Shown piece after piece: positions 15,315-49,014 of a stretch of DNA of 54,570 nt; position 1 is the first letter of the stretch, and every line of letters starts with the position of its first letter. Made by a program: the position numbers and the translations under genes. The stretch comes from Erysipelothrix sp. (lineage in GTDB: Bacteria; Bacillota_I; Bacilli_A; Erysipelotrichales; Erysipelotrichaceae). The notes beneath the pieces were generated by a model. It worked only from the letters and a program-made list of their open reading frames with translations, had not been told where the DNA came from and did no database searches. Location: contig JAAYGI010000018.1 in NCBI GenBank assembly GCA_012727815.1, forward strand, positions 1-54,570, given 5' to 3'.

Positions 15315-15387
15315 ATTCTTTCCCTTTTATAAAATTAAACGCTAGATTAACAATACTTTATACTAGCATCTTCACTTTTCCCATTTT

Positions 15388-15765
15388 CTAAACGTATTCA
15401 ACTTCTTCTTTCACAATAATACTTGGATTAAGACTTGCCATCACAGGACAACTCTTAGATACAAGGTGCACAATGCGCTCGACACGCTGCTTGTCAGATT
15501 CCTGGACACGCATTCTATATACAATTGTAATCAACCTTACAGGCTTAACACGCACCATCTCATCAACTTCATAAGATACAGTAGTATTTGAGAATTCATG
15601 TTCTATCCCCGATTTACTTAATATTCCATCAAAGACATACATACCACAAGCTGCCACTGAAGCAACAAGTGCTTGCACTGGTGAAAAACCAATATCACGT
15701 TTTAAATTCCAGTTCCCATTTTCACGAACTAATTCAATGCCATCATTTCCAAATACTAATTCCAT
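15388..15765 (-). CDS. OsmC-family peroxiredoxin-like protein
   Basis: A 125-residue OsmC/Ohr-family protein, members of which reduce organic hydroperoxides with two cysteines. Both expected cysteines are present, in SVAACGMYVFDG and SKSCPVMASLNPS. The frame extends 16 codons upstream, but AAAGGCGG is spaced for the ATG at 15763-15765, so the shorter form is annotated. It is a monocistronic gene. It could equally be an uncharacterised YhfA-like OsmC member rather than a true hydroperoxidase. Confidence 0.85.
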   Translation of the reverse strand: MELVFGNDGIELVRENGNWNLKRDIGFSPVQALVASVAACGMYVFDGILSKSGIEHEFSNTTVSYEVDEMVRVKPVRLITIVYRMRVQESDKQRVERIVHLVSKSCPVMASLNPSIIVKEEVEYV

Positions 15766-15935
15766 TTCAATACCGCCTTTTCTATTGTCATTATTATACG
15801 ACTTATTTTTCAACTTTTCACCCTTATATTATAATTTGGATTATAACCGTTATTTTCTTTTACATTTCTCAAGCTAAAGAGATAGGTAATTTAATAATTT
15901 ATACTTAACTTTTATTTCTTAGTCTTACCCCAACC

Positions 15936-15972
15936 AAAAGAAAAGACACTACCTATATTTATAAGTAGTGTC
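15936..15972 (-). terminator. Terminator of tRNA-Val
   Basis: The 8-bp perfect stem GACACTAC / GTAGTGTC with a 12-base loop is followed by UUUUCUUUU on the minus strand, 15 bases after the tRNA CCA end. Confidence 0.8.
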
Positions 15973-15986
15973 TGTATATCAAACTA

Positions 15987-16062
15987 TGGTGGACGATACG
16001 GGGCTCGAACCCATGACCTCTTGCACGTCAAGCAAGCGCTCTCCCAACTGAGCTAATCCTCC
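15987..16062 (-). tRNA. tRNA-Val (GAC) with an acceptor-stem mismatch
   Basis: The cloverleaf is complete: anticodon stem-loop CTTGC-TTGACGT-GCAAG (anticodon GAC), D-arm with AGCTCAGTTGGGAGAGC, T-loop TTCGAGC, discriminator A and encoded CCA. The acceptor arms GGAGGAT and ATCGTCC pair except at position 4-69, which is G opposite G. A cytosine at position 4 would restore pairing. Its own promoter and terminator flank it, so it is likely expressed. Confidence 0.93.
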
Positions 16063-16074
16063 AAATCCTTATTA

Positions 16075-16103
16075 ATATTACCATATATAAGGATAAGTAT
16101 CAA
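16075..16103 (-). promoter_or_regulatory. tRNA-Val promoter
   Basis: TTGATA (16098-16103), a 17-base spacer and TAATAT (16075-16080) lie on the minus strand just before tRNA-Val. The boxes are almost identical to those before the tRNA-Ser/Asp/Gly cluster. Confidence 0.8.
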
Positions 16104-16128
16104 CCATTGGAAAAGTCTTCCATGATAA

Positions 16129-16764
16129 CTAAGCTAGTTTTGTGATTGAAGATATTCTTTCGAAAATATAACTTGGATTTTCAAGTTCAAACTTCTCATA
16201 GCTACTGACACCGGTTAATATGGCACATGATTTTATATGTGCTGCATGGGCCATCTTGATATCATTTGGAGCATCTCCAACCATAAACAAATGTTTCTTT
16301 CTTAAATCATACATCTCTACAAGATGTTCAACGGGTAATGGATGGGGTTTATAGGATGTTAAAGTATCCGATCCTACAACATCTACAAAATAAGACTCAA
16401 TACCCAATAACTTTAATTTTTTCATCGTTTCAGCATGCGAATTATTTGATATTAAAAAGAGTCTTGAATTCTTGTTTCTGAGATAATTCAATGTGCTGAG
16501 CACATCTCCAAAAAGACCAGCTTCTTTCATGCGTTTCTTTAAAAATAATTTACGATACATATCTAGGAATTCACTCAACATTTTGTCATCGAAGTTCCGA
16601 ATGATTTCTATCTTAAATATATCTTCTGGTTTCATACTAAGACGTGAGAAAATATTGTCTGATGTTACTTTAATATTGTAGAAACTAAAGGTTTCTTTTA
16701 AAGCAGACTCCATACATGTTTTTGTATCTATAATTGTCCCATCAAAATCAAAGATAAAATCCAT
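16129..16764 (-). CDS. HAD-superfamily phosphatase
   Basis: A 211-residue haloacid dehalogenase-like hydrolase of the phosphoglycolate phosphatase/beta-phosphoglucomutase type (cap class I). Motif I is FDFDGTIIDT at the N terminus with the nucleophilic Asp, motif II is LISNNS, motif III is the Lys in TSYKPHPLP, and motif IV is MVGDAPNDIKMA. The cap is at about residues 15-80. AGGAGG lies 4 bases before the ATG at 16762-16764, so the longer frame is not used. The substrate cannot be predicted. Confidence 0.87.
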   Translation of the reverse strand: MDFIFDFDGTIIDTKTCMESALKETFSFYNIKVTSDNIFSRLSMKPEDIFKIEIIRNFDDKMLSEFLDMYRKLFLKKRMKEAGLFGDVLSTLNYLRNKNSRLFLISNNSHAETMKKLKLLGIESYFVDVVGSDTLTSYKPHPLPVEHLVEMYDLRKKHLFMVGDAPNDIKMAHAAHIKSCAILTGVSSYEKFELENPSYIFERISSITKLA

Positions 16765-34427: not shown

Positions 34428-35231
34428 ATGACAAATAAATTAAAAACAGGTGAATTCGCTAAATTGGTAAACATTCCAAAACATGTCTTATTTTATTATG
34501 ATGAGATTGATTTGTTTAAACCTGAGATTGTTGATGAAAATAACTACCGATATTATGCCTATACTCAATACTATCTTTTTAATGTTATTCGTTTTTTTAA
34601 GGATCTAGGGATGCCTTTAAAGTTAATCAAAGAATTTCTAGATAATAGAAGTCCTAAACTTCTAAGAGGTGTTCTTGATACACAACATGCAAAGATAACA
34701 CAAGAAATTAAAAAGTTAGAACAAGCCAAAGTATTTATTGAATATACTCAAGATATTATTGAATTCAGCTCTCAGTATCCTATACTAGAGTGTTTCTTAA
34801 TTGAAAAAGAGGATGAGTCTTTATTCATATCTGAAGAACTCCCACACGATAGCTTTGAAGGATTTGTTCAAGAGTATGCAAAATTCACCAACGCCAATGA
34901 AATTGAGTTCTCAAACTATATTGGGGTTATGACAGATATCGAAGTCTTTAAATATAGAAACACCCAACAGTACTCTCACCACTTTGTAAACAGTCTTTTT
35001 GAAGATTCATTAAAATCTAACTATATTAAAAAGAAAGGAACCTACCTTACCTACTTATATAAAGGAAGTTTTGATGATATTACAGATGCTTATCAATTAA
35101 TGATTGAATATGCTAAAGAAAACAAGTTTGAACTTGAGGGTTATTTCTATGAATTAACCTTACACAATGAAGCAATGTATGTAGATTCTTTAGATTTCTT
35201 AACAGAGATAAGCATACGTCTTAAGGATTAG
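34428..35231 (+). CDS. MerR-family transcriptional regulator
   Basis: A 267-residue protein with an N-terminal MerR helix-turn-helix ([27 protein letters not shown], shown here in part as residues 6-32), a dimerisation coiled coil near residues 75-110 and a C-terminal half (125-267) resembling a GyrI-like ligand-binding domain. AGGAGG is nine bases before the ATG. It is divergent from the ABC exporter genes and shares an 82-base intergenic region that carries a 19-bp-spaced promoter. The inferred role is to switch on the exporter upon binding a drug. Confidence 0.85.
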
Positions 35232-35281
35232 GTGGCTTTTGTAAAATTATCATGAAACTTGAACTGCAAGTTAATAATATC

Positions 35282-35311
35282 TATACCATAATATTTTTCT
35301 TATGGTATAAT
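35282..35311 (+). promoter_or_regulatory. Promoter with a 10-bp dyad operator
   Basis: The perfect inverted repeat TATACCATAA / TTATGGTATA (35282-35291, 35300-35309) overlaps the -10 box TATAAT (35306-35311) of the PEPCK-like gene. The -35 region is poor. The arrangement suggests a repressor over the -10, or an activator that compensates for the -35. Confidence 0.65.
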
Positions 35312-35338
35312 AGATAGAATAACTCAAGGAGGTTTAAC

Positions 35339-37030
35339 ATGATTGAAACACTATATTTACATGGAAATACAGCCGTCATTAACTATAATGAAGGATACCC
35401 AACTAGAAATGTGAGCATTTTAAATAGTAACTCATTTAAAAAACTTATTGATGCATTTTTAGTTAATGGGAATAAATTTACAGTGAGAAGACTGCATAAG
35501 GAATTTCCTGAAGGAAATATAACACAAGAGATTTTAGATCTTGTACGTCAGATACACGTATTTGAATTAGATGAAGTAAAACATCCTTTAATTAAGGATA
35601 TCAAATTCGTTCAAAAACTTATTGAAGATGTCTATGAATATTGGAGAGAATACCAACGTTGTAGTGTTATCTACTTGGGGAGAAAATCTAAATCCGAACT
35701 TGTAAACTTTATTGATAAAGATACTGAATTTAACCGTATCATGTTATCTTTCTACCGTAACCTACAAGAAAAAGCACAGGGTAAACCAAATAAGATTTAC
35801 CGTCAATTACGTGCTGGTACAAATGCTGCCATTACATTACGTAAAAAAGAGCACAAGATTCCTAAAGCATATGACAACCTAGATGGTATTATGTTTATTG
35901 ATAGTGTACTTTTACACTCACCATTACTATTACATCCAAAAACAAACAAACGTGAAGGTCACTTCGAAGAGGTTTTTGAAAACCCGCTAAGTGATTTCAA
36001 AAGAGATAACAATAACTTCTATTGCTATCCTGCTAAAATGGGTACACAACTTGCTTATGTATACTTCCACAAAGACTTTGTCTTCTCAGGAATATCACTG
36101 GCTAACCTATTTGAGCCTGCTACAACAGAAGACATCGCAACACGCGAACCAGATATCCTAGTAGCATTTGGTGTTAAAGACGGAAAAGATGACATGGTGT
36201 TTTACAATGACAAAGAAAATGATGTTGTTGTTGCTAAGATTTCATATCAAGATAAAATTGAATACTTTGGTTATATGAAAAAGATTATGCTAACTGCATA
36301 TAACGTTTCTATGATGGCTAAAGGTAATCTACCAATCCATGGTGCTATGGTTAACATTAGTTTAACAAATGGTAAAAAACATGGTGTTGTATTCATGGGA
36401 GACAGTGGTGCTGGTAAATCAGAGATTATTGAAGAAATCTCAAACCTAGGTGGAGATACCATCGAGGATATCGAAGTAATCTTCGATGACATGGGTGCAT
36501 TCAGAATTAATGATGAAGGTGAAGTTGTTGCTCAAGGTACAGAGATTGGTGCATTTGTTAGGTTAGATGACCTCGATAGAGCCCTACCTTACCAAGCAAT
36601 GGATCGCAGTATCTTTATGAATCCTGAATCCACAACCAATGCACGTGTTATTATCCCTATTACAGATTTTGAAACAGTACAAAGTGATCACAAAGTGGAT
36701 TACTTCCTATACGCTAATAACTACGATGCTGAAATCGGTGTTAAATTATTTGATTCTGTTGAAGAGAGTAAAGCAACATTTGTTGAAGGTAAACGTATGG
36801 CTAAAGGAACAACTCATGAATTTGGATTAACATACTCATTCTTTGCAAATCCATTCGGTCCTTTACAACAAGAAGAAGTTTGTCTTCCTCTAATTGATAA
36901 ATATTGGGACGCAATGAAAAAATCAAATGTTCAAATTGGTGAAGTATACACCAACTTGGGTGTTGAGAATAGAACAGAGCAAAGTCTTAAAGATTCCGCT
37001 CAAAGTGTTTTAGACCTCATCGAAAAATAG
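35339..37030 (+). CDS. Divergent PEP carboxykinase-like ATP-dependent protein
   Basis: A 563-residue protein. Its C-terminal half matches the ATP-type PEP carboxykinase core: FGYMKKIMLTAYN (310-322, equivalent to the active-site Lys pair region), LPIHGAMVNI (331-340, with a His at the metal position), P-loop GDSGAGKSE (354-362), the kinase-2 Asp pair in EVIFDDMG (379-386) and NARVIIPI (434-441). The N-terminal 300 residues do not look like PEPCK; in particular the arginine that binds oxaloacetate is not evident. P-loop and kinase-2 also resemble HPr kinase, a related fold. It may be a PEPCK with an altered N-lobe or a kinase of another substrate. AAGGAGG precedes the ATG. It is monocistronic with a dyad operator. 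Confidence 0.7.
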   Translation: MIETLYLHGNTAVINYNEGYPTRNVSILNSNSFKKLIDAFLVNGNKFTVRRLHKEFPEGNITQEILDLVRQIHVFELDEVKHPLIKDIKFVQKLIEDVYEYWREYQRCSVIYLGRKSKSELVNFIDKDTEFNRIMLSFYRNLQEKAQGKPNKIYRQLRAGTNAAITLRKKEHKIPKAYDNLDGIMFIDSVLLHSPLLLHPKTNKREGHFEEVFENPLSDFKRDNNNFYCYPAKMGTQLAYVYFHKDFVFSGISLANLFEPATTEDIATREPDILVAFGVKDGKDDMVFYNDKENDVVVAKISYQDKIEYFGYMKKIMLTAYNVSMMAKGNLPIHGAMVNISLTNGKKHGVVFMGDSGAGKSEIIEEISNLGGDTIEDIEVIFDDMGAFRINDEGEVVAQGTEIGAFVRLDDLDRALPYQAMDRSIFMNPESTTNARVIIPITDFETVQSDHKVDYFLYANNYDAEIGVKLFDSVEESKATFVEGKRMAKGTTHEFGLTYSFFANPFGPLQQEEVCLPLIDKYWDAMKKSNVQIGEVYTNLGVENRTEQSLKDSAQSVLDLIEK

Positions 37031-37035
37031 TATAC

Positions 37036-37072
37036 AAAGCTTCAGCTGTCACAAACAGCTGAAGCTTTTTTT
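37036..37072 (+). terminator. Terminator of the PEPCK-like gene
   Basis: The perfect 14-bp stem AAAGCTTCAGCTGT / ACAGCTGAAGCTTT with a five-base loop and T run lies 6 bases after the stop. Confidence 0.93.
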
Positions 37073-37172
37073 ATTATTACTGCATCTTAAGCAATATTTC
37101 ATACCTCTTACCTTGAATACTTTACCAAAGTAAAAGATTGAGTGTTATAATATCGACAGAAAAGAGGACACT

Positions 37173-38786
37173 ATGACACTAAAAAAATTATTACTAAAAA
37201 ACAAAAAAGATGCTTTCCTATATATACTGGGAATTATCATATCAGGATCGACTAATGTCCTGTTCACACTTGCTTTGGCAAATATATTTAATGCATTAAA
37301 TGCAAATTCAACGCAAGAATTAATTAAAATAGTAATCGTATCATTCATAATTGCAATCATTCCAGTTATTGCCCAGATCATCTCTAGGTTCCTAAGAATT
37401 GGATTTATGACTCAAATTATTAAAGATGTAAGATTACTTGCTTACAATAAGATATTGAATCTATCAAATGAGAAATATAATGAGCAAGAAAACGAAGCAT
37501 ATCAATCATTACTTATATCTGATGTGAATCTCTTCGAAAGAAACTTCTTCCTATCAATCTTAAATATAGGATTCTCATTATTAAACTCTCTTATTAGTTT
37601 AACGATAGTATTCTTTATTTCTTATGAATTTGCACTAATCGCACTGCTTACAATGGCACTTCTAACTATTATTACAAAGTTATTTGAAAAACCAGTTAGA
37701 TTACAGAAGCAAAAAACAATTGAACAAAATGCTATCTATAACGAGTCAGTTGCTAACCTAGTAGCAGGTGCACCCACAATCAAACACTATTCTAAAGAAT
37801 CAAACTTCTTAAATTCATTTAAAAATGATACTGAAAAATTAGAATCTATTAAAGGTAAGTCATTCTTACTACAAAGAACACAACGTGGTATCAGTAATAT
37901 TGTTGCTTATGCAAGTTCAACAATACTTATCCTACTAGCAACATACTTCTTAGGTATTGGAAAAATTTCAATTGCTGAGCTAGTCATTCTTATCAATGTG
38001 AGTGGCTCTCTATCATGGACCTTAATTCATGGTTTTGTCCACATCAACAATTTAATTTCAAGTGTTGATATCTTCAATAGAATTGTTGCATCTGAGGATG
38101 AAATTAAGGGTTCTGTTGAAAGCATTGATTCTATTGAGTATTCAGTTAAAAACTTAAGTTTCTCATATGACAATGAAGTTAATATTCTAGATGATTTATC
38201 CTTTAATATTAAAGCTAACGAAAAAGTATTAATTCATGGTCCATCTGGAACAGGTAAAACTACTTTACTTAATAACCTGTCACAAAACCTACGTAACTAT
38301 ACAGGAAGTATCAAACTAGGATCCCATGAACTTATCGACATATCACAAGATACATTCTTGGATTACTCATCCTACATTAGACAATCACACTTTATGTTTA
38401 ATGATACTGTTAAAAACAATATTGTCTTGAATCAAAAATATGATCACGACAAATATATGGACGTCTTGAAAAAGGCCTCAATCATTGATTGGCTAGAAGC
38501 GAATGAAGAAATCACCTTAGAATCAAATGGTTCAAATATATCAGGTGGGCAAAAACAACGTATTTCCTTTGCAAGAGAACTCTATTCTGATTCAGATATT
38601 ATCTTTATCGATGAGCCAAGCGCAAGTTTAGATGATGCCAATGCTGAGGTCATTTACGACACAATTATCAATCTAGACAAAACGGTTGTTTGTGTTTCTC
38701 ATAGACACTTAAACTACTTAAGAAAACACTTTGATCATGTCATCGCATTTAACGAGGAAGGAGCTGTTACTTATGAAAAAGCATAA
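37173..38786 (+). CDS. ABC exporter subunit A
   Basis: A 537-residue ABC half-transporter: six membrane helices in residues 15-300 and an ATPase domain with Walker A GPSGTGKTT (356-364), signature ISGGQKQRISFAREL and Walker B IIFIDEPSASLD with catalytic Glu. Its partner gene begins inside its last 14 bases and is broken. The TATAAT at about 37156-37161 with a poor -35 is a likely promoter, and GAGGA precedes the ATG. The pair resembles small exporters for peptides or lipids in Bacillota; no peptide precursor was found beside it. If the partner is dead, this subunit may work only as a homodimer or not at all. Confidence 0.85.
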   Translation: MTLKKLLLKNKKDAFLYILGIIISGSTNVLFTLALANIFNALNANSTQELIKIVIVSFIIAIIPVIAQIISRFLRIGFMTQIIKDVRLLAYNKILNLSNEKYNEQENEAYQSLLISDVNLFERNFFLSILNIGFSLLNSLISLTIVFFISYEFALIALLTMALLTIITKLFEKPVRLQKQKTIEQNAIYNESVANLVAGAPTIKHYSKESNFLNSFKNDTEKLESIKGKSFLLQRTQRGISNIVAYASSTILILLATYFLGIGKISIAELVILINVSGSLSWTLIHGFVHINNLISSVDIFNRIVASEDEIKGSVESIDSIEYSVKNLSFSYDNEVNILDDLSFNIKANEKVLIHGPSGTGKTTLLNNLSQNLRNYTGSIKLGSHELIDISQDTFLDYSSYIRQSHFMFNDTVKNNIVLNQKYDHDKYMDVLKKASIIDWLEANEEITLESNGSNISGGQKQRISFARELYSDSDIIFIDEPSASLDDANAEVIYDTIINLDKTVVCVSHRHLNYLRKHFDHVIAFNEEGAVTYEKA

Positions 38787-40407
38787 TTTCGGAAATAAAA
38801 AACACTTTATCTTATTTGCATTTGTAGCACTATTTCTTGCAATTGGAAATGGTCTACTCCTACTAAATATTGGTAAGTTCACTGACGCAAGTCTTGCAAG
38901 AAACTTGCCTTTAATGCTAAGTCTTTTAAAAACTATGACAATAGTCTTTGCATTTATTACACTATTCGAATTTCTTACAAACTATATCAGTAAGAAACAT
39001 CTTGAAGAATCTATGGTCGACCTTAAGGTCGACTATATGGAAAATGTTCTAAAAAGAACTCCAATATTCCTAAGTAAAGCAAAGTCTTCACAATTCGTAA
39101 GTAACCTTACAAGTGATGCAGACCGCTTAGAATTACAATACTACATGGAGATACAGGAAATCATACATACAATATTTCAATTTATTATATCCTGTATCTT
39201 ATTAACAAGTATCAGCACGTATTTTATCCCTGTTATTTTGCTACTTGCATTTATCTTTATATCGATATCTAGTAAAACAGGAGAAACAATCAAGAAAGAT
39301 GAAAGTAAGAAATCAAAATCACTTGTTAAGTTTACTGCTTTTATTGAATAAACATTAAATGGATTTGAAGTAATTAATCAACACAAACTACAGGATTCAA
39401 GATTAGATACTTTTGATTCAATCACTGAACAATTAAAGAAAGATCAATTCCAAGTTGAGAAACAAACAACACTGATGGATGGACTAAACTCTTTCGTACA
39501 GGTTCTTATTCTGATAGGAGCCTCCACTTTAGGAGTTATTGTTGCACTTAAGACAAATCTAAATATGGGTGGACTGATGGTTATTATTTCATCATTCTCA
39601 AATATTATTTGGCCTTTAAGAAGTATTTCTCCACAAATTATCTCTGTTTCTTCTATTAAAGTAATATTTGAAGATTATGATAAAACACTTAAGGAAGAGA
39701 TGCCTGTTACACCATTAACTATTGATAGCTTCGAAAATATATCATTCAACAATGTTGATTTAGGTTATGATAAAACTATCCTTAGCAACGTAAACTTCTC
39801 AATTAATAGAAATGAGAAAGTATTGATTGTTGGTCCATCTGGTGAAGGTAAATCAACACTTTTAAAATCAATTCTTAGAGAACTTGATCCACTTGATGGT
39901 GAGATTACTACAAACAATAAGAAGATCAATCAAATAGAAATCAAACCTTACTTTGATATGTTCTCTTTAGTACATCAAAAAGGATTCATCTTCTCAAATA
40001 CAGTTGAAAACAATATTAACCTACTGGGTAAAGAAGACACCCAATCTCATCTAGATGCTGTTTCACTTAGCACACTTGATAAGGATTTAGACCTTCAAAA
40101 TGATGGTTCAAACATTTCAGGAGGACAGCGTGCAAGACTAATGCTAGCACGTGCAAACTTCTTTAATAAAGATGTTGTCTTAACTGATGAGGTCTTTGCA
40201 AGTCTTGATCAAAGTATTGGTGAGTCATTAGAAAAAGATATGCTATCACTGCCTCAAACACTGATAAACATATCTCATATCGTATTTAAAAATAACTTAG
40301 ATCTTTATGATAAATTCCTAATTGTAGAAAATGGCTGTGTCCAAGTATCTTATAACAAGGATGATGTTATTGCACGTATGTTAGAAACAGACGTTGTTAT
40401 AACTTAA
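38773..40407 (+). pseudogene. ABC exporter subunit B, broken by an in-frame stop
   Basis: From the ATG at 38773-38775 (after AGGAAGGAG) the frame reads through six-helix membrane-domain sequence to TAA at 39349-39351. The same frame then continues without any shift through TLNGFEVINQHK to the end of a normal ATPase domain (Walker A GPSGEGKSTLL, signature ISGGQRARLMLARA, Walker B VVLTDEVFASLD) at 40407. Read through, the protein would be 544 residues, a full half-transporter. The downstream ATG at 39475 has no ribosome binding site. A single base change from CAA, GAA or AAA would create the stop. The partner gene is intact. Confidence 0.85.
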
Positions 40408-43861: not shown

Positions 43862-44554
43862 TTAATAAAATATTTCTTTAATACCTTTAGTATCTTCAAT
43901 TCTTTTTGCTTGAGTTTCTTCAAGTAGTTCCATATGTGGGATTTCTGTTTCTAGGTATGCTTTTGCAAAACCTGGATTCATAACAAGAAATGGTCCTGTA
44001 ATATTAGTTCCTACAAGTCCTTTATAAACAAATCCTTCTAGCATTGAATTTCTGTTAATTCCCATACCCTTGTCTACTTTAAATAAGTAGTCTGTATGAT
44101 CCTTGCTGAAGCTTTCTGTAAACTGTGTCTTATGTCCTACCATTGGAATCCCTTCATAAGATCCATAAAGTACCACATTAAGACGCGGACTGCGTTTAAT
44201 AACTGTTTCAAAGTCAAAGAGTCCTAAACCTTTAATAACAGACTTATCTTCTTCAATAATTTTTGTTCCTAATAAGTCAGTTGCATTACCAGTAAAAAGC
44301 ACCTTCATGTTGTTTTCAATTTTTTCTTTTAATTTATCTAATACCGGATGTAATATATCAAGTACTTGAATTTGAGTTTTCTCACTCATGGCTCCCATAT
44401 AAACCATATCGATATCTTCTGATAAGAATCTTGGTTTTTCTAGGATAGATGTACGAATAACATTTTCTTTACCAAATGTTTTCTCTAAGAGTAAGATATT
44501 ACCATTATCACCATACATAGCGCACAGCTCAGGAAATAAGATTTCTATTTTCAT
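43862..44554 (-). CDS. GatD-like protein lacking catalytic Cys and His (pseudo-amidotransferase)
   Basis: A 230-residue class I glutamine-amidotransferase-fold protein related to GatD, the glutaminase half of the lipid II isoglutaminyl synthase. The shared framework is clear: MYGDNGNILLLEK near residue 13, IKGLGLFDFET (108-116), EGFVYKGLVG and GPFL (173-190). The active-site elbow reads VLFTGNATDLLG (85-96) where GatD has a Cys-Gly-Gly motif, so the Cys position is Gly89. The His position (in THLHGP-type motifs) is Thr186. The protein therefore should not hydrolyse glutamine. It overlaps the MurT-like stop by four bases and is co-transcribed with it. Confidence 0.8.
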   Translation of the reverse strand: MKIEILFPELCAMYGDNGNILLLEKTFGKENVIRTSILEKPRFLSEDIDMVYMGAMSEKTQIQVLDILHPVLDKLKEKIENNMKVLFTGNATDLLGTKIIEEDKSVIKGLGLFDFETVIKRSPRLNVVLYGSYEGIPMVGHKTQFTESFSKDHTDYLFKVDKGMGINRNSMLEGFVYKGLVGTNITGPFLVMNPGFAKAYLETEIPHMELLEETQAKRIEDTKGIKEIFY

Positions 44555-45918
44555 TTAGCTGCCTCACTTTCTAGTATTGCTCTAAACTTTTTAACATGTG
44601 TTAAATTGGTTAAGTCATGTAGCATTACAACACTGTCTGTATCAAAAGGAATATCAATTGTGTCTGCAGGTTCTAATAATGTAATAATATCGGGATTAAT
44701 GCCTGCAAGTACAAGACGTGTTTTAAAGTCTAAGACTCTATTACCCATACAGTATATCTTTTTAATACGTGGATCATTTAAATATTCAAAGTCACTTTCA
44801 TAGTGCCAGCTTGTATTTTCAACTTCACCAAATTCTGTGGAGTGTGTGGAGTCTTCATTCATGAAGATAATCGTCATACTTCCCCAGTCATCTTGTTTTC
44901 TAACAAAGTCATAAACTCTTGAGTTTGCTACAGGATTTTGATCCTTTGCAAGAACAGAAACAATACGTTTACCGTTAACAAGAGATTCATCATACCTTGA
45001 CTCAACGACTTTAACAGCCTCTTTATCAAAGCTATCAGCAATCTCTTTATGTGTATAACCAATTTCTCTTAATACAGCAATTGCTGCGAGTTTATTGTAG
45101 TTATCTGTAATATTACGGATCTTATTCTTATATTCATATGATTTACCATCTTCGATTAATAATAAGTGTGTATCTGTAATCTCTTTTAACTCATATGTAA
45201 TTTCAGGTGTTTTGTATCCACATTTATTACAGTGTACAACACCGATATGGTGGTAACGTTTGAAATCATAAACAAGTACATCACCACATACTGGACAGTA
45301 AGGTGCATCCTGAATAATACTATCTTTAATTTCTTCTTCGAATTCTTGAGGTGCGATTGAGAATGTACTACGTTTATTATCTTTTCTTAAATTACTTGCA
45401 AGAACATCGTCTCCATTTAATATTAAGTGTGATTTCTTTGGAATTGTTTGTTCTAAAATGTCTACAATGTATCCAACGTGTGCATTTCTTTTGTATGAAT
45501 CTCGGTAAAGATTTGTTACAACAAGATAATCTGGTTGGATGTATGGAAATATATAGGGTGTGATTTTTTCATCAACTTCAAATACAGCAATATCTTTTTT
45601 GTTTTTACCAAAAAATGATGTTGATGTTAAAAGTGATGTAATGATACCACCTTCAATATTACTTCCTGATGTATTACTTACAATGCTAACATTTTTTGCT
45701 TCTAAGAAATCTACAATCATGTTTGTTGTTGTTGTTTTTCCATTTGTTCCTGTAATTGCTACAAATTTATCTGGCATTTCTAAATAGCCTAAAACTTGTG
45801 GACAAATCTTTAATGCAACAACCCCTGGAAAGTGACTTGCATTTCTTCCCAGTAGTTTTAATAAAATTACAGATGATCGCGCAGCAATCATTGCAACATA
45901 AAATCTAATTCTCTTCAT
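44551..45918 (-). CDS. MurT-like Mur ligase domain protein
   Basis: A 455-residue MurT relative: the Mur ligase P-loop GTNGKTTTT at residues 57-65, a zinc ribbon with C208, C211, C230 and C233 (PYCPVCG and HCNKCG), and a C-terminal DUF1727 domain. MurT activates the alpha-carboxyl of D-Glu in the lipid II stem peptide with ATP, and GatD then supplies ammonia. Here the DUF1727 motif region (FGEVENTSWHYESDFEYL) is divergent from the canonical DG..VSW.WD..FE. With its degenerate GatD-like partner, this pair may carry a different nucleophile to the D-Glu carboxyl, or may be a regulatory remnant. AGAGGT precedes the ATG. Confidence 0.82.
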   Translation of the reverse strand: MKRIRFYVAMIAARSSVILLKLLGRNASHFPGVVALKICPQVLGYLEMPDKFVAITGTNGKTTTTNMIVDFLEAKNVSIVSNTSGSNIEGGIITSLLTSTSFFGKNKKDIAVFEVDEKITPYIFPYIQPDYLVVTNLYRDSYKRNAHVGYIVDILEQTIPKKSHLILNGDDVLASNLRKDNKRSTFSIAPQEFEEEIKDSIIQDAPYCPVCGDVLVYDFKRYHHIGVVHCNKCGYKTPEITYELKEITDTHLLLIEDGKSYEYKNKIRNITDNYNKLAAIAVLREIGYTHKEIADSFDKEAVKVVESRYDESLVNGKRIVSVLAKDQNPVANSRVYDFVRKQDDWGSMTIIFMNEDSTHSTEFGEVENTSWHYESDFEYLNDPRIKKIYCMGNRVLDFKTRLVLAGINPDIITLLEPADTIDIPFDTDSVVMLHDLTNLTHVKKFRAILESEAAK

Positions 45919-45973: not shown

Positions 45974-46471
45974 TTATCGTGACCAGTCATCTTCATGAAG
46001 TCCGTATACACGTACATCATGATATCTACCTGCACGATAGACCATATCTCTGAGTCGACCTTCTTGTCTAAATCCTAATTTTTCATATAGACCAATAGCA
46101 CGTGTATTGAATTCAAATACATGTAAATATAGTCTTCTAAGGTTTAAGCCTTCAAAGCCAAACTTAATCAGTCTTCTTAATATTTTAGTACCATATCCAC
46201 GTGACCAGTAATTACTATCACCAATAACAATGGATAATTCTGCGTGTCTGTTTCTTGTGTCAACATTCATTAATGAACATACACCAATTGGCTTGTCATT
46301 GACAGTTACAAGGTATGTAAAGCCATCAACCAATCTTTGAGCCCACACTTCAATTTCTTCGTAGCTTCTAGGTCTTAAGAATTCACTTTGATCATAGATA
46401 GCAACTTGTTCATTGTTTCGCCATTCATAGTAAATAGGAATGTGCGCTTCTGTAAATTTTTCGAATTTCAT
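45974..46471 (-). CDS. GNAT-family N-acetyltransferase (RimJ/RimL-like)
   Basis: A 165-residue GNAT: FTEAHIPIYYEWRNN at the N terminus, acetyl-CoA motif SYWSRGYGTKILRRLI near residue 90, and FNTRAIGLYEKLGFRQEGRLRD as motif B. Proteins of this type acetylate ribosomal proteins, aminoglycosides, or amino acids and amines. AGGAGAGGG is placed for the ATG at 46469-46471, so the longer frame is rejected. It lies 11 bases downstream of the M20 dipeptidase gene and may be co-transcribed with it. Confidence 0.85.
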   Translation of the reverse strand: MKFEKFTEAHIPIYYEWRNNEQVAIYDQSEFLRPRSYEEIEVWAQRLVDGFTYLVTVNDKPIGVCSLMNVDTRNRHAELSIVIGDSNYWSRGYGTKILRRLIKFGFEGLNLRRLYLHVFEFNTRAIGLYEKLGFRQEGRLRDMVYRAGRYHDVRVYGLHEDDWSR

Positions 46472-46482
46472 ATTTCCCTCTC

Positions 46483-47793
46483 CTAGCATAAATTTTCAAA
46501 TGCATTCATATATATTTCAATTGCTTGTTTTATCTTTTTAATAGAGATTGACTCATTTGCTTGATGTGCTGTCATTGTTTCTCCTGGAAACAGAGGACCA
46601 AATGCAACAGTATTTGGTATTGCACGTGCATATGTTGCACCACCTATTTTTAAAGGTTGGCTGAGTATATCTTTTGTTACACTTCGATAACTTTTTAGTA
46701 GTGTTTGAACTAAGTGTGAATCTTGTGGTACATAGAGGCTATCTAAACTAGAATAGACTGATACCGACATATCATATGCTTGTGCAAAATCACTCACTGC
46801 TTTAATTATATCACCTTTTGTAAAAGATACAGGATATCTTATATCAAGTGTTATAACTTGTTTATTATCTTCTGCGTATGCCTTACCAACATTGAATGTT
46901 ATTTTACCAGATGCTTCATCTTCAAAATGATCAAGAGGTAGTTTTGTATATAAATCTGATACAAATCTTTCTTGTGGACTTGCCATGCCTACTGAATCCA
47001 GTGCATGTGCAAGATAGAAAATAGCATTGGCACCTTCATCAGGTGTAGAAGCATGTGCGGACTTTCCAAATACTTGGATATTATCTTCCACAATTTCATA
47101 ACTTCGATCATTTTTATCTAAGGCATGCATTGCTTTTTCTCTGTTTTTAGTACTTGCTTTAGCAGCTACAGCATTTAAACTATCGCCACCTTCTATTATT
47201 TTACCATCTTCAATGTCACCTTTTAATATAAGTTGCAGTGTACCGCGTTCTAAGTGAACAATTGGGAAGTCTGCATCAGGTGTTATACCTTGTGTAGGTA
47301 TCTCTTCCTTAAGCTTATAAGCATCTAAACAGCGCCAGAGGCTCTCTTCATCTGTTCCAAATATAAATCGAACACGTGAGCTTAATTCAAAACCTTCATC
47401 TAGTAAAAGTCTCAAGCCCCACATTGCAGCAAGTGTTGGCCCTTTATCATCAGATGTTCCTCTACCATAGAGGCGACCTTCTTTTTCAACCAATACAAAG
47501 GGTGGTGTTTCCCATTCCTTGTGGTCTCCCTCACTAACAACGTCAATATGACATAAAACACCAAATAAATCTTCACCTGTTCCGATATCAGCATAACCAT
47601 AATATCCTTCAGGATCTTTATATGTTGTGTAACCAAGTTCATTTGATATTTCTAATACTTCATCAAGTGCGGCATCAATATCTTTTCCAAAGGGTTTAAA
47701 CGATTCATCCAAAACACTTGGATGTTTTATCAGTCTGTTTAAAAAATCAGTATATTCTATAAATCTAGATTCTATTTCACTTTTTCTACTCAT
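46483..47793 (-). CDS. M20-family dipeptidase (PepV-like)
   Basis: A 436-residue metallopeptidase of the M20 (PepV/Sapep) family, which cleaves dipeptides taken up from the medium or from cell-wall turnover. The metal and catalytic residues are visible in GVLCHIDVVSEGD, GRGTSDDKGPTLA, FGTDEESLW (Glu pair) and ITPDADFPIVHLERG. A lid domain occupies about residues 180-340. AAAGGA suits the ATG at 47791-47793. It is the first gene of a small unit with the GNAT gene and is divergent from alanine racemase. Confidence 0.88.
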   Translation of the reverse strand: MSRKSEIESRFIEYTDFLNRLIKHPSVLDESFKPFGKDIDAALDEVLEISNELGYTTYKDPEGYYGYADIGTGEDLFGVLCHIDVVSEGDHKEWETPPFVLVEKEGRLYGRGTSDDKGPTLAAMWGLRLLLDEGFELSSRVRFIFGTDEESLWRCLDAYKLKEEIPTQGITPDADFPIVHLERGTLQLILKGDIEDGKIIEGGDSLNAVAAKASTKNREKAMHALDKNDRSYEIVEDNIQVFGKSAHASTPDEGANAIFYLAHALDSVGMASPQERFVSDLYTKLPLDHFEDEASGKITFNVGKAYAEDNKQVITLDIRYPVSFTKGDIIKAVSDFAQAYDMSVSVYSSLDSLYVPQDSHLVQTLLKSYRSVTKDILSQPLKIGGATYARAIPNTVAFGPLFPGETMTAHQANESISIKKIKQAIEIYMNAFENLC

Positions 47794-47892
47794 AATAGCA
47801 ATTCCTTTCATAAATATGACTTTATCCTTTTAATATTCTTATATGTACATTATAATCTATATTAAGACTAAATACATAGAAAAGAGGAAATC

Positions 47893-49014
47893 ATGAACTA
47901 TAATTCAAAATTTATTGTAGATACTAAAAGATTAAGGGAGAATATTGATCATATCTTCTCAAATATAAGCGAAACTACGCGCCTTATCCCTATGTTAAAA
48001 GCAAATGCCTATGGGCATGGTTTGGTTGAGGTTGCACAAATACTCAACGATTATGACAAGATTGAATTTATGGGTGTTGCTCAGGTTATTGAAGCACTTA
48101 CTTTAAAAGAAGCAGGCATCAATAAACGTGTCATTATATTTTGTGGTGTCAATGAGGATCAAATCGATACTATTATTGAAAATAGATTTGAACCCATACT
48201 TCATAATATTGAATCTGTAATTGCATTTGATAAAAAACTTAAAGAAAATAACATTAAAAATTACCCAGTACATCTTAAAATTAATACTGGTTTAAACCGA
48301 TTAGGTTTCTATGGTAAAAGTGATCTTTATACAGCAATAGAATATTTAAAGAATACTGATTCATTTGAGATTGTTAGTACCTACTCTCACTTTATTAATG
48401 GAGCATTAGAAAACTATGAACACTCTTTTAAACAAAATGAAAAGTTCTTAGAAGCCATTAAACAATTATCTGATCAAGGTATAGATTATGGTTTCAAACA
48501 TATCTGTGATAGTGGTGCTTATGAATGGTATAAGAAGGCACACTATGATGCCGTACGAATTGGTCGTGCACTTTATATGGACAACCCTAATAAAGAGGAA
48601 TCCAAACGCTTTAAAGACGTTGGTTCATGGTCAGCACGTATCATTTCTAAACGTAATTTATCAAAGGGTGAAACTATCGGTTATGGTGGATCTTATGTTT
48701 GTGAGAAGGATATGACTTTAGGTATTATTAATATTGGTTATGGAGATGGCTTAATGTTAAATCTACCAGATATTAAAGCACCCCTACTTGTAAATGATAT
48801 GCAATCTCATTTCATTTCTATCGCTATGGATCAAAGTTATATTGATCTTAGCAATATTGACGCTAAGATCGGAGATACTGTTACATTGTTTGGATTTAAC
48901 AGCAATAATACTTATTTATCAAGTCATGAAATTAGTAAATTAATGGATGATGAAGGCTGTACACTTACAACTCTTATGTCAAATAGAGTAAAAAGGAAAT
49001 ATAAGCAAGATTAA
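47893..49014 (+). CDS. alr: Alanine racemase
   Basis: Converts L-alanine to D-alanine for peptidoglycan, using pyridoxal phosphate. The 373-residue protein has the PLP-lysine motif PMLKANAYGHGLVEVA near residue 32 and the catalytic Tyr in TIGYGGSYVCE near residue 258. It also has INTGLNRLGF and GYGDGLML. Length and order are normal for Alr, although the sequence is divergent in places. GAGGA precedes the ATG. It is monocistronic, with a TATAAT at about 47846-47851, and lies near the MurT-like and M20 genes, which also serve the envelope. Confidence 0.9.
   Translation: MNYNSKFIVDTKRLRENIDHIFSNISETTRLIPMLKANAYGHGLVEVAQILNDYDKIEFMGVAQVIEALTLKEAGINKRVIIFCGVNEDQIDTIIENRFEPILHNIESVIAFDKKLKENNIKNYPVHLKINTGLNRLGFYGKSDLYTAIEYLKNTDSFEIVSTYSHFINGALENYEHSFKQNEKFLEAIKQLSDQGIDYGFKHICDSGAYEWYKKAHYDAVRIGRALYMDNPNKEESKRFKDVGSWSARIISKRNLSKGETIGYGGSYVCEKDMTLGIINIGYGDGLMLNLPDIKAPLLVNDMQSHFISIAMDQSYIDLSNIDAKIGDTVTLFGFNSNNTYLSSHEISKLMDDEGCTLTTLMSNRVKRKYKQD

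Follow-up and report, generated by a model that had tools for sequence, protein, structure and literature searches.

The question raised by this locus is what reaction a MurT/GatD pair might catalyse once its glutaminase has lost its catalytic residues. The pair lies in a 54,570-nucleotide stretch of an Erysipelothrix sp. genome (contig JAAYGI010000018.1, positions 1 to 54,570, hereafter the window), where it is encoded on the minus strand by two genes overlapping by 4 bp. The first (43862..44554) specifies a 230-aa GatD-like subunit with a class I GATase fold but no catalytic residues, and the second (44551..45918) a 455-aa MurT-like ligase subunit composed of Mur_ligase_M and MurT_C domains. 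The obvious reference is the lipid II isoglutaminyl synthase MurT/GatD of S. aureus and S. pneumoniae (PDB 6gs2, 6fqb), which has the same folds, gene adjacency, ATP site, zinc ribbon, acceptor-binding Asn and GatD interface Gly. In what follows, a GatD without the catalytic Cys and His is called dead, while one that keeps both is called canonical.

Both proteins score above cut-off in Pfam, the GatD-like protein for GATase_3 (E 3.7e-10) and the MurT-like protein for Mur_ligase_M (5.5e-10) and MurT_C (4.3e-14). Their top NCBIfam matches are isoglutaminyl synthase models (E 1e-57 for the MurT-like protein), yet the scores fall far under the equivalog cut-offs, that is, 195.9 and 190.4 bits against 800 for the MurT-like protein, and 62.6 against 450 and 56.6 against 400 bits for the GatD-like protein. 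An AlphaFold2 model of the latter (pLDDT 94.9) has S. aureus GatD (6gs2_A) as its closest PDB entry, with a TM score of 0.84. In three Lachnospiraceae the pair is a single MurT-GatD fusion of 739-748 aa, the model of which (pTM 0.90) matches both the MurT and GatD chains. Both the fold and the division into two parts are preserved in these models. The dead pair is thus a real MurT/GatD variant, and one that is unreported in the literature searched. This has a practical implication, since a MurT/GatD pair in a genome is not proof of D-Glu amidation, which makes automatic annotation as isoglutaminyl synthase unsafe in this family.

How completely has the glutaminase been lost? In S. aureus, the catalytic triad is split over both subunits, with C94 and H189 in GatD and D349 in MurT, and the C94G, C94S and D349N changes abolish or severely reduce activity (PMC6113224). 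In S. pneumoniae, Ala at the equivalent MurT residue, Asp355, lowered activity without suppressing it (PMC6085368). When aligned to the solved GatD of these two species, the window GatD has Gly89 (codon 44288..44290, minus strand) at the Cys position and Thr186 (43997..43999, minus strand) at the His position, while its MurT partner has Asn368 (44815..44817, minus strand) at the triad Asp position facing GatD. By this alignment, the window pair has lost all three triad residues of the two-subunit glutaminase, and through Gly89 and Asn368, which match C94G and D349N, this natural pair carries two laboratory dead mutations. The surroundings have changed as well, with the oxyanion Gly-Gly-Gly becoming G54-A55-M56 and the canonical ENH motif becoming KTQ. 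The GatD changes are not peculiar to the window. All 30 dead GatDs have Gly or Ser at the Cys position, where 50/50 canonical ones have Cys, none of the 30 has His at the His position, and oxyanion and ENH residues are altered in the subfamily as well. A relocated nucleophile is not evident, because the dead GatDs share no conserved Cys and none of their His positions exceeds 50% occupancy. One element of the old site does persist, the glutamine-capturing Arg (R142 in S. pneumoniae), which is Arg124 in the window and is kept in 28/30 dead GatDs.

The ligase half has fared very differently. The MurT P-loop (GTNGKT, residues 57-62; 45733..45750, minus strand) and the Cys4 zinc ribbon (C208, C211, C230 and C233; 45220..45297, minus strand) are both intact, and the P-loop Lys, the Glu of the DE motif, the Asn that binds the acceptor carboxylate, the adenine-site Asn and the acceptor GxN motif are invariant in the 30 dead MurTs. 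The ligase is therefore probably active, as far as residue conservation can tell. The initial annotation, which had described a pair that keeps its ligase and lacks its glutaminase on the strength of the missing GatD Cys and His and the preserved MurT P-loop and zinc ribbon, is borne out on each of these points. This conservation also bears on the notion of a pseudoenzyme pair with a regulatory or scaffolding role and no catalysis. The glutaminase site, including the equivalent of MurT D349, is indeed wholly lost, as such a role would allow, but a non-catalytic scaffold would have no need for a P-loop, a DE motif and ATP-site residues that vary little or not at all across the 30 MurTs, which makes this explanation very improbable.

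Is the dead state old and selected, or is it decay? Both proteins were used as queries against 148 genomes of the host order, and the residues were read at every GatD locus found. The survey for shared losses that had been proposed for this pair gave a consistent answer. The 27 dead loci come from 24 genomes, and each of the remaining 51 genomes in which a GatD was found retains both Cys and His. A further genome, G075, encodes a canonical-looking MurT, but no GatD was detected in it. Three genomes have two dead pairs each (G110, G120 and G145), and one has two canonical pairs (G144). A search for another MurT or GatD in the window genome (84% complete, 123 contigs), which had also been suggested, found none. 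In an unrooted maximum-likelihood tree of MurT, a branch supported at 100/99 separates the 30 dead MurTs (these 27 and the three Lachnospiraceae fusions) from the S. aureus and S. pneumoniae proteins. Although the tree itself gives no direction, the dead state is taken as derived because a Cys-His pair is general in class I amidotransferases. The GatD part of the fusions gives a dN/dS of 0.06-0.07, and a second pair of sequences one of 0.15. These values indicate that dead GatD is under purifying selection, and together with the conservation described above they rule out pseudogene decay. A separate observation concerns a GatD-like gene in G115 (L044:10198-10908), which is interrupted in frame by a TAG at codon 13, whereas the closely similar gene of G137 is uninterrupted; this may be a sequencing error, a restart or an early loss.

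A class-level search of 346 genomes added 17 dead loci with the same TGN-type elbow, all of them from a single family whose genomes are small (f12, 0.6-1.5 Mb). Most of these retain the MurT Asp, so its loss is a trait of that part of the subfamily to which the window pair belongs. In two genomes of family f18 (G176 and G187, loci L111 and L118), Glu occupies the Cys position, Arg the His position and Ile the MurT Asp position, apparently an independent triad loss in a different family, to judge from the residues. Taken together, the window pair is best explained as a member of an old, selected MurT/GatD subfamily, with a dead glutaminase and what appears to be a live ligase.

Which amine such a ligase would use is a harder question. 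Glutaminase loss alone does not imply a new one, since the S. aureus enzyme accepts free ammonia at pH 8.5, with GatD still required (PMC6085368). The main rival explanation is accordingly an ammonia-dependent amidase, in which D-isoglutamine is still made, from free ammonia, and dead GatD is structural. Intact ATP and acceptor sites speak for it, as do the recurrence of dead pairs in the small genomes of another family and the loss of the triad at least twice. There is also a precedent, the carbamoyl-phosphate synthetase I of the urea cycle, an ammonia-using enzyme that is glutaminase-dead and keeps the dead domain in a working complex. The likeness is that of two dead class I glutaminases, related through the GATase fold only and serving different reactions.

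The MurT/GatD interface may point away from ammonia. In the window MurT, the loop from R139 to H147 (RDSYKRNAH; 45478..45504, minus strand) stands in place of RDQxDRxGE at the edge of the GatD interface and of the putative ammonia channel (PMC6085368). Across the dead MurTs, the canonical RDQxDR[FY]GE becomes RD[SQ]x[RKT]RN[AG]H, with R144 and N145 near-invariant and H147 in 24/30, and the KNP loop has a two-residue insertion that also sets them apart from canonical MurTs. Where acidic residues in the gate and loop would steer ammonium, basic or neutral ones now stand, a change that would fit a carboxylate-bearing nucleophile better. The retention of the glutamine-capturing Arg also counts against an ammonia-dependent amidase, which leaves the links to ATP-grasp and EctB genes described below unexplained. 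On balance we regard it as possible but rather unlikely.

The reading we favour, with a probability of roughly 45%, is that the pair is a MurT-type ligase that takes up a preformed amine, most likely an amino acid, and links it to D-Glu at the alpha-carboxyl. MurT would phosphorylate the D-Glu alpha-carboxyl of the lipid-linked wall precursor, and a ready-made amine rather than glutamine-derived ammonia would then attack the acyl phosphate. That amine, most likely an amino acid, would be held at the MurT/GatD interface, dead GatD being a necessary structural and substrate-holding subunit. The ATP-grasp partner, where present, may add the next residue, because extending a bridge outward from a carboxyl calls for amide ligases that use ATP, whereas Fem transferases, which depend on tRNA, would not serve. 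If this is right, the dead pair would resemble the Mur ligases MurC-MurF not only in ATP-dependent carboxyl activation but also in using an amino acid as nucleophile, although MurT differs from them in having no UDP-binding N-terminal domain and in having a GatD-like partner.

Several genomic associations argue for an amino acid. The fusions hold both parts of the pair in one protein, and ATPgrasp_ST (PF14397) is present in 19/24 dead-pair genomes (one match, in G089, being weak and partial) and in 0/52 canonical-pair genomes (Fisher p 1e-13), or in 10/12 dead against 0/25 canonical genera (p 2e-7), the association being phylogenetically clustered and the tests ignoring shared ancestry beyond genus. 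In three genomes the gene adjoins the dead pair, starting 10 bp after GatD in a congener (G112), overlapping MurT in G145 (by 23 bp with the genes as called), and lying divergent 17 bp away in G120. It also occurs in all three Lachnospiraceae fusion genomes, where the gene directly downstream of the fusion (3/3) encodes a diaminobutyrate transaminase scoring above the curated EctB cut-off. Strong FemAB genes are rarer with the dead pair (11/24 genomes) than with the canonical one (45/52), a tendency only, so that FemAB does not mark canonical genomes exclusively. These links, together with the retention of Arg124, indirectly support an amino acid as nucleophile. Counting against it are the strong FemAB genes in those 11 dead-pair genomes, the phylogenetic clustering of the ATP-grasp association, the absence of EctB from the window's whole order (which also rejects it as a general partner), the lack of any detected ATPgrasp_ST in the window genome (84% complete), and the fact that 9/10 sampled congeners have no pair at all.

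What ATPgrasp_ST itself does also matters. Members from different lineages are about 30-47% identical, a sequence search returned no PDB relative, and a literature search on the family found no paper. Acyl-phosphate amide chemistry would be expected by analogy, as for the pair, with an unrelated fold. Pfam, however, links the family to sugar transfer, which lends some colour to another scenario, in which the pair and the ATP-grasp protein modify a different surface polymer or a small molecule and not lipid II. The mostly non-wall-specific neighbourhoods of dead pairs agree with it. The invariant acceptor-binding Asn and GxN motif speak for the usual acceptor, as does a candidate GH25-type muramidase adjoining the fusions (identified by reading the sequence), and we consider a different acceptor distinctly unlikely.

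Could the pair be a missing enzyme of group B peptidoglycan? Our literature searches found no paper that identifies which enzymes attach the residues of the cross-bridge to the alpha-carboxyl of D-Glu in such walls. A published table lists the walls of E. rhusiopathiae and Holdemania filiformis as B1delta, Gly-Lys and Asp-Lys being adjacent to D-Glu (PMC4062643). The initial annotation had speculated that the pair attaches such a bridge, or gates the reaction. No evidence for gating was found, and amino acid attachment has gained indirect support from the ATP-grasp link, the Lachnospiraceae EctB and the more basic loop, whereas a simple tie to group B walls in the genus is not supported, because both MurT and GatD are missing from 9/10 of the congeners sampled. 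If their walls are of the Erysipelothrix group B type, most species make them without the pair. ATPgrasp_ST is present, usually twice, in 8/9 of these pairless congeners, and FemAB is lacking in the genus. Published Erysipelothrix primers gave no hits, whether matched exactly or with 2 mismatches allowed. We hypothesise that the ATP-grasp enzyme would be the better candidate there, with MurT/GatD serving other lineages as a substitute or as an extra ligase. At one such locus, the two ATPgrasp_ST paralogues (L074:9249-10247 and 15368-16414) are 46% identical and separated by about 5 kb, and other congeners without the pair have corresponding loci arranged likewise.

Dead MurT/GatD and ATPgrasp_ST are nonetheless concrete gene candidates for joining the group B cross-bridge, found in small operons and as a natural fusion protein. 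A wider and more tentative proposal, which we hold to be doubtful, is that together they form a cross-bridge module growing outward from the D-Glu alpha-carboxyl, a missing group B-type ligase in some Bacillota, and one that uses diaminobutyrate in the Lachnospiraceae fusion lineage. Diaminobutyrate does occur in actinobacterial group B cross-bridges.

The MurE substrate motif was considered as a marker of stem position 3 and abandoned, as it varied with no clean split. In several dead-pair genomes and congeners it reads QDRR, HDNR, DDHW, DDYG or DDPS instead of [DE]DPR (loci L124, L125, L130, L131, L136, L138, L139 and L143), a hint in the sequences that other residues might occupy this position. 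One congener (G083), which is without MurT/GatD, ATPgrasp_ST and FemAB, has the QDRR motif in common with the window genome.

As for the immediate neighbours of the window pair, a GNAT acetyltransferase gene (45974..46489, minus strand; ORF list and Pfam) lies 55 bp upstream of MurT, and a gene for an M20 family dipeptidase (46483..47811, minus strand; Pfam and NCBIfam) overlaps it. Both are putative members of the same operon and were rejected as conserved partners, as they were not seen at other dead-pair loci. An alanine racemase gene (47893-49014, plus strand) is divergent from this M20-GNAT-MurT-GatD run. Further away in the window, a plus-strand cluster (34428-40407) comprising a 267-aa ORF, a gene whose 563-aa product has a weak PEPCK-like match, and genes of an ABC transporter type is possibly a peptide-modification or export locus.
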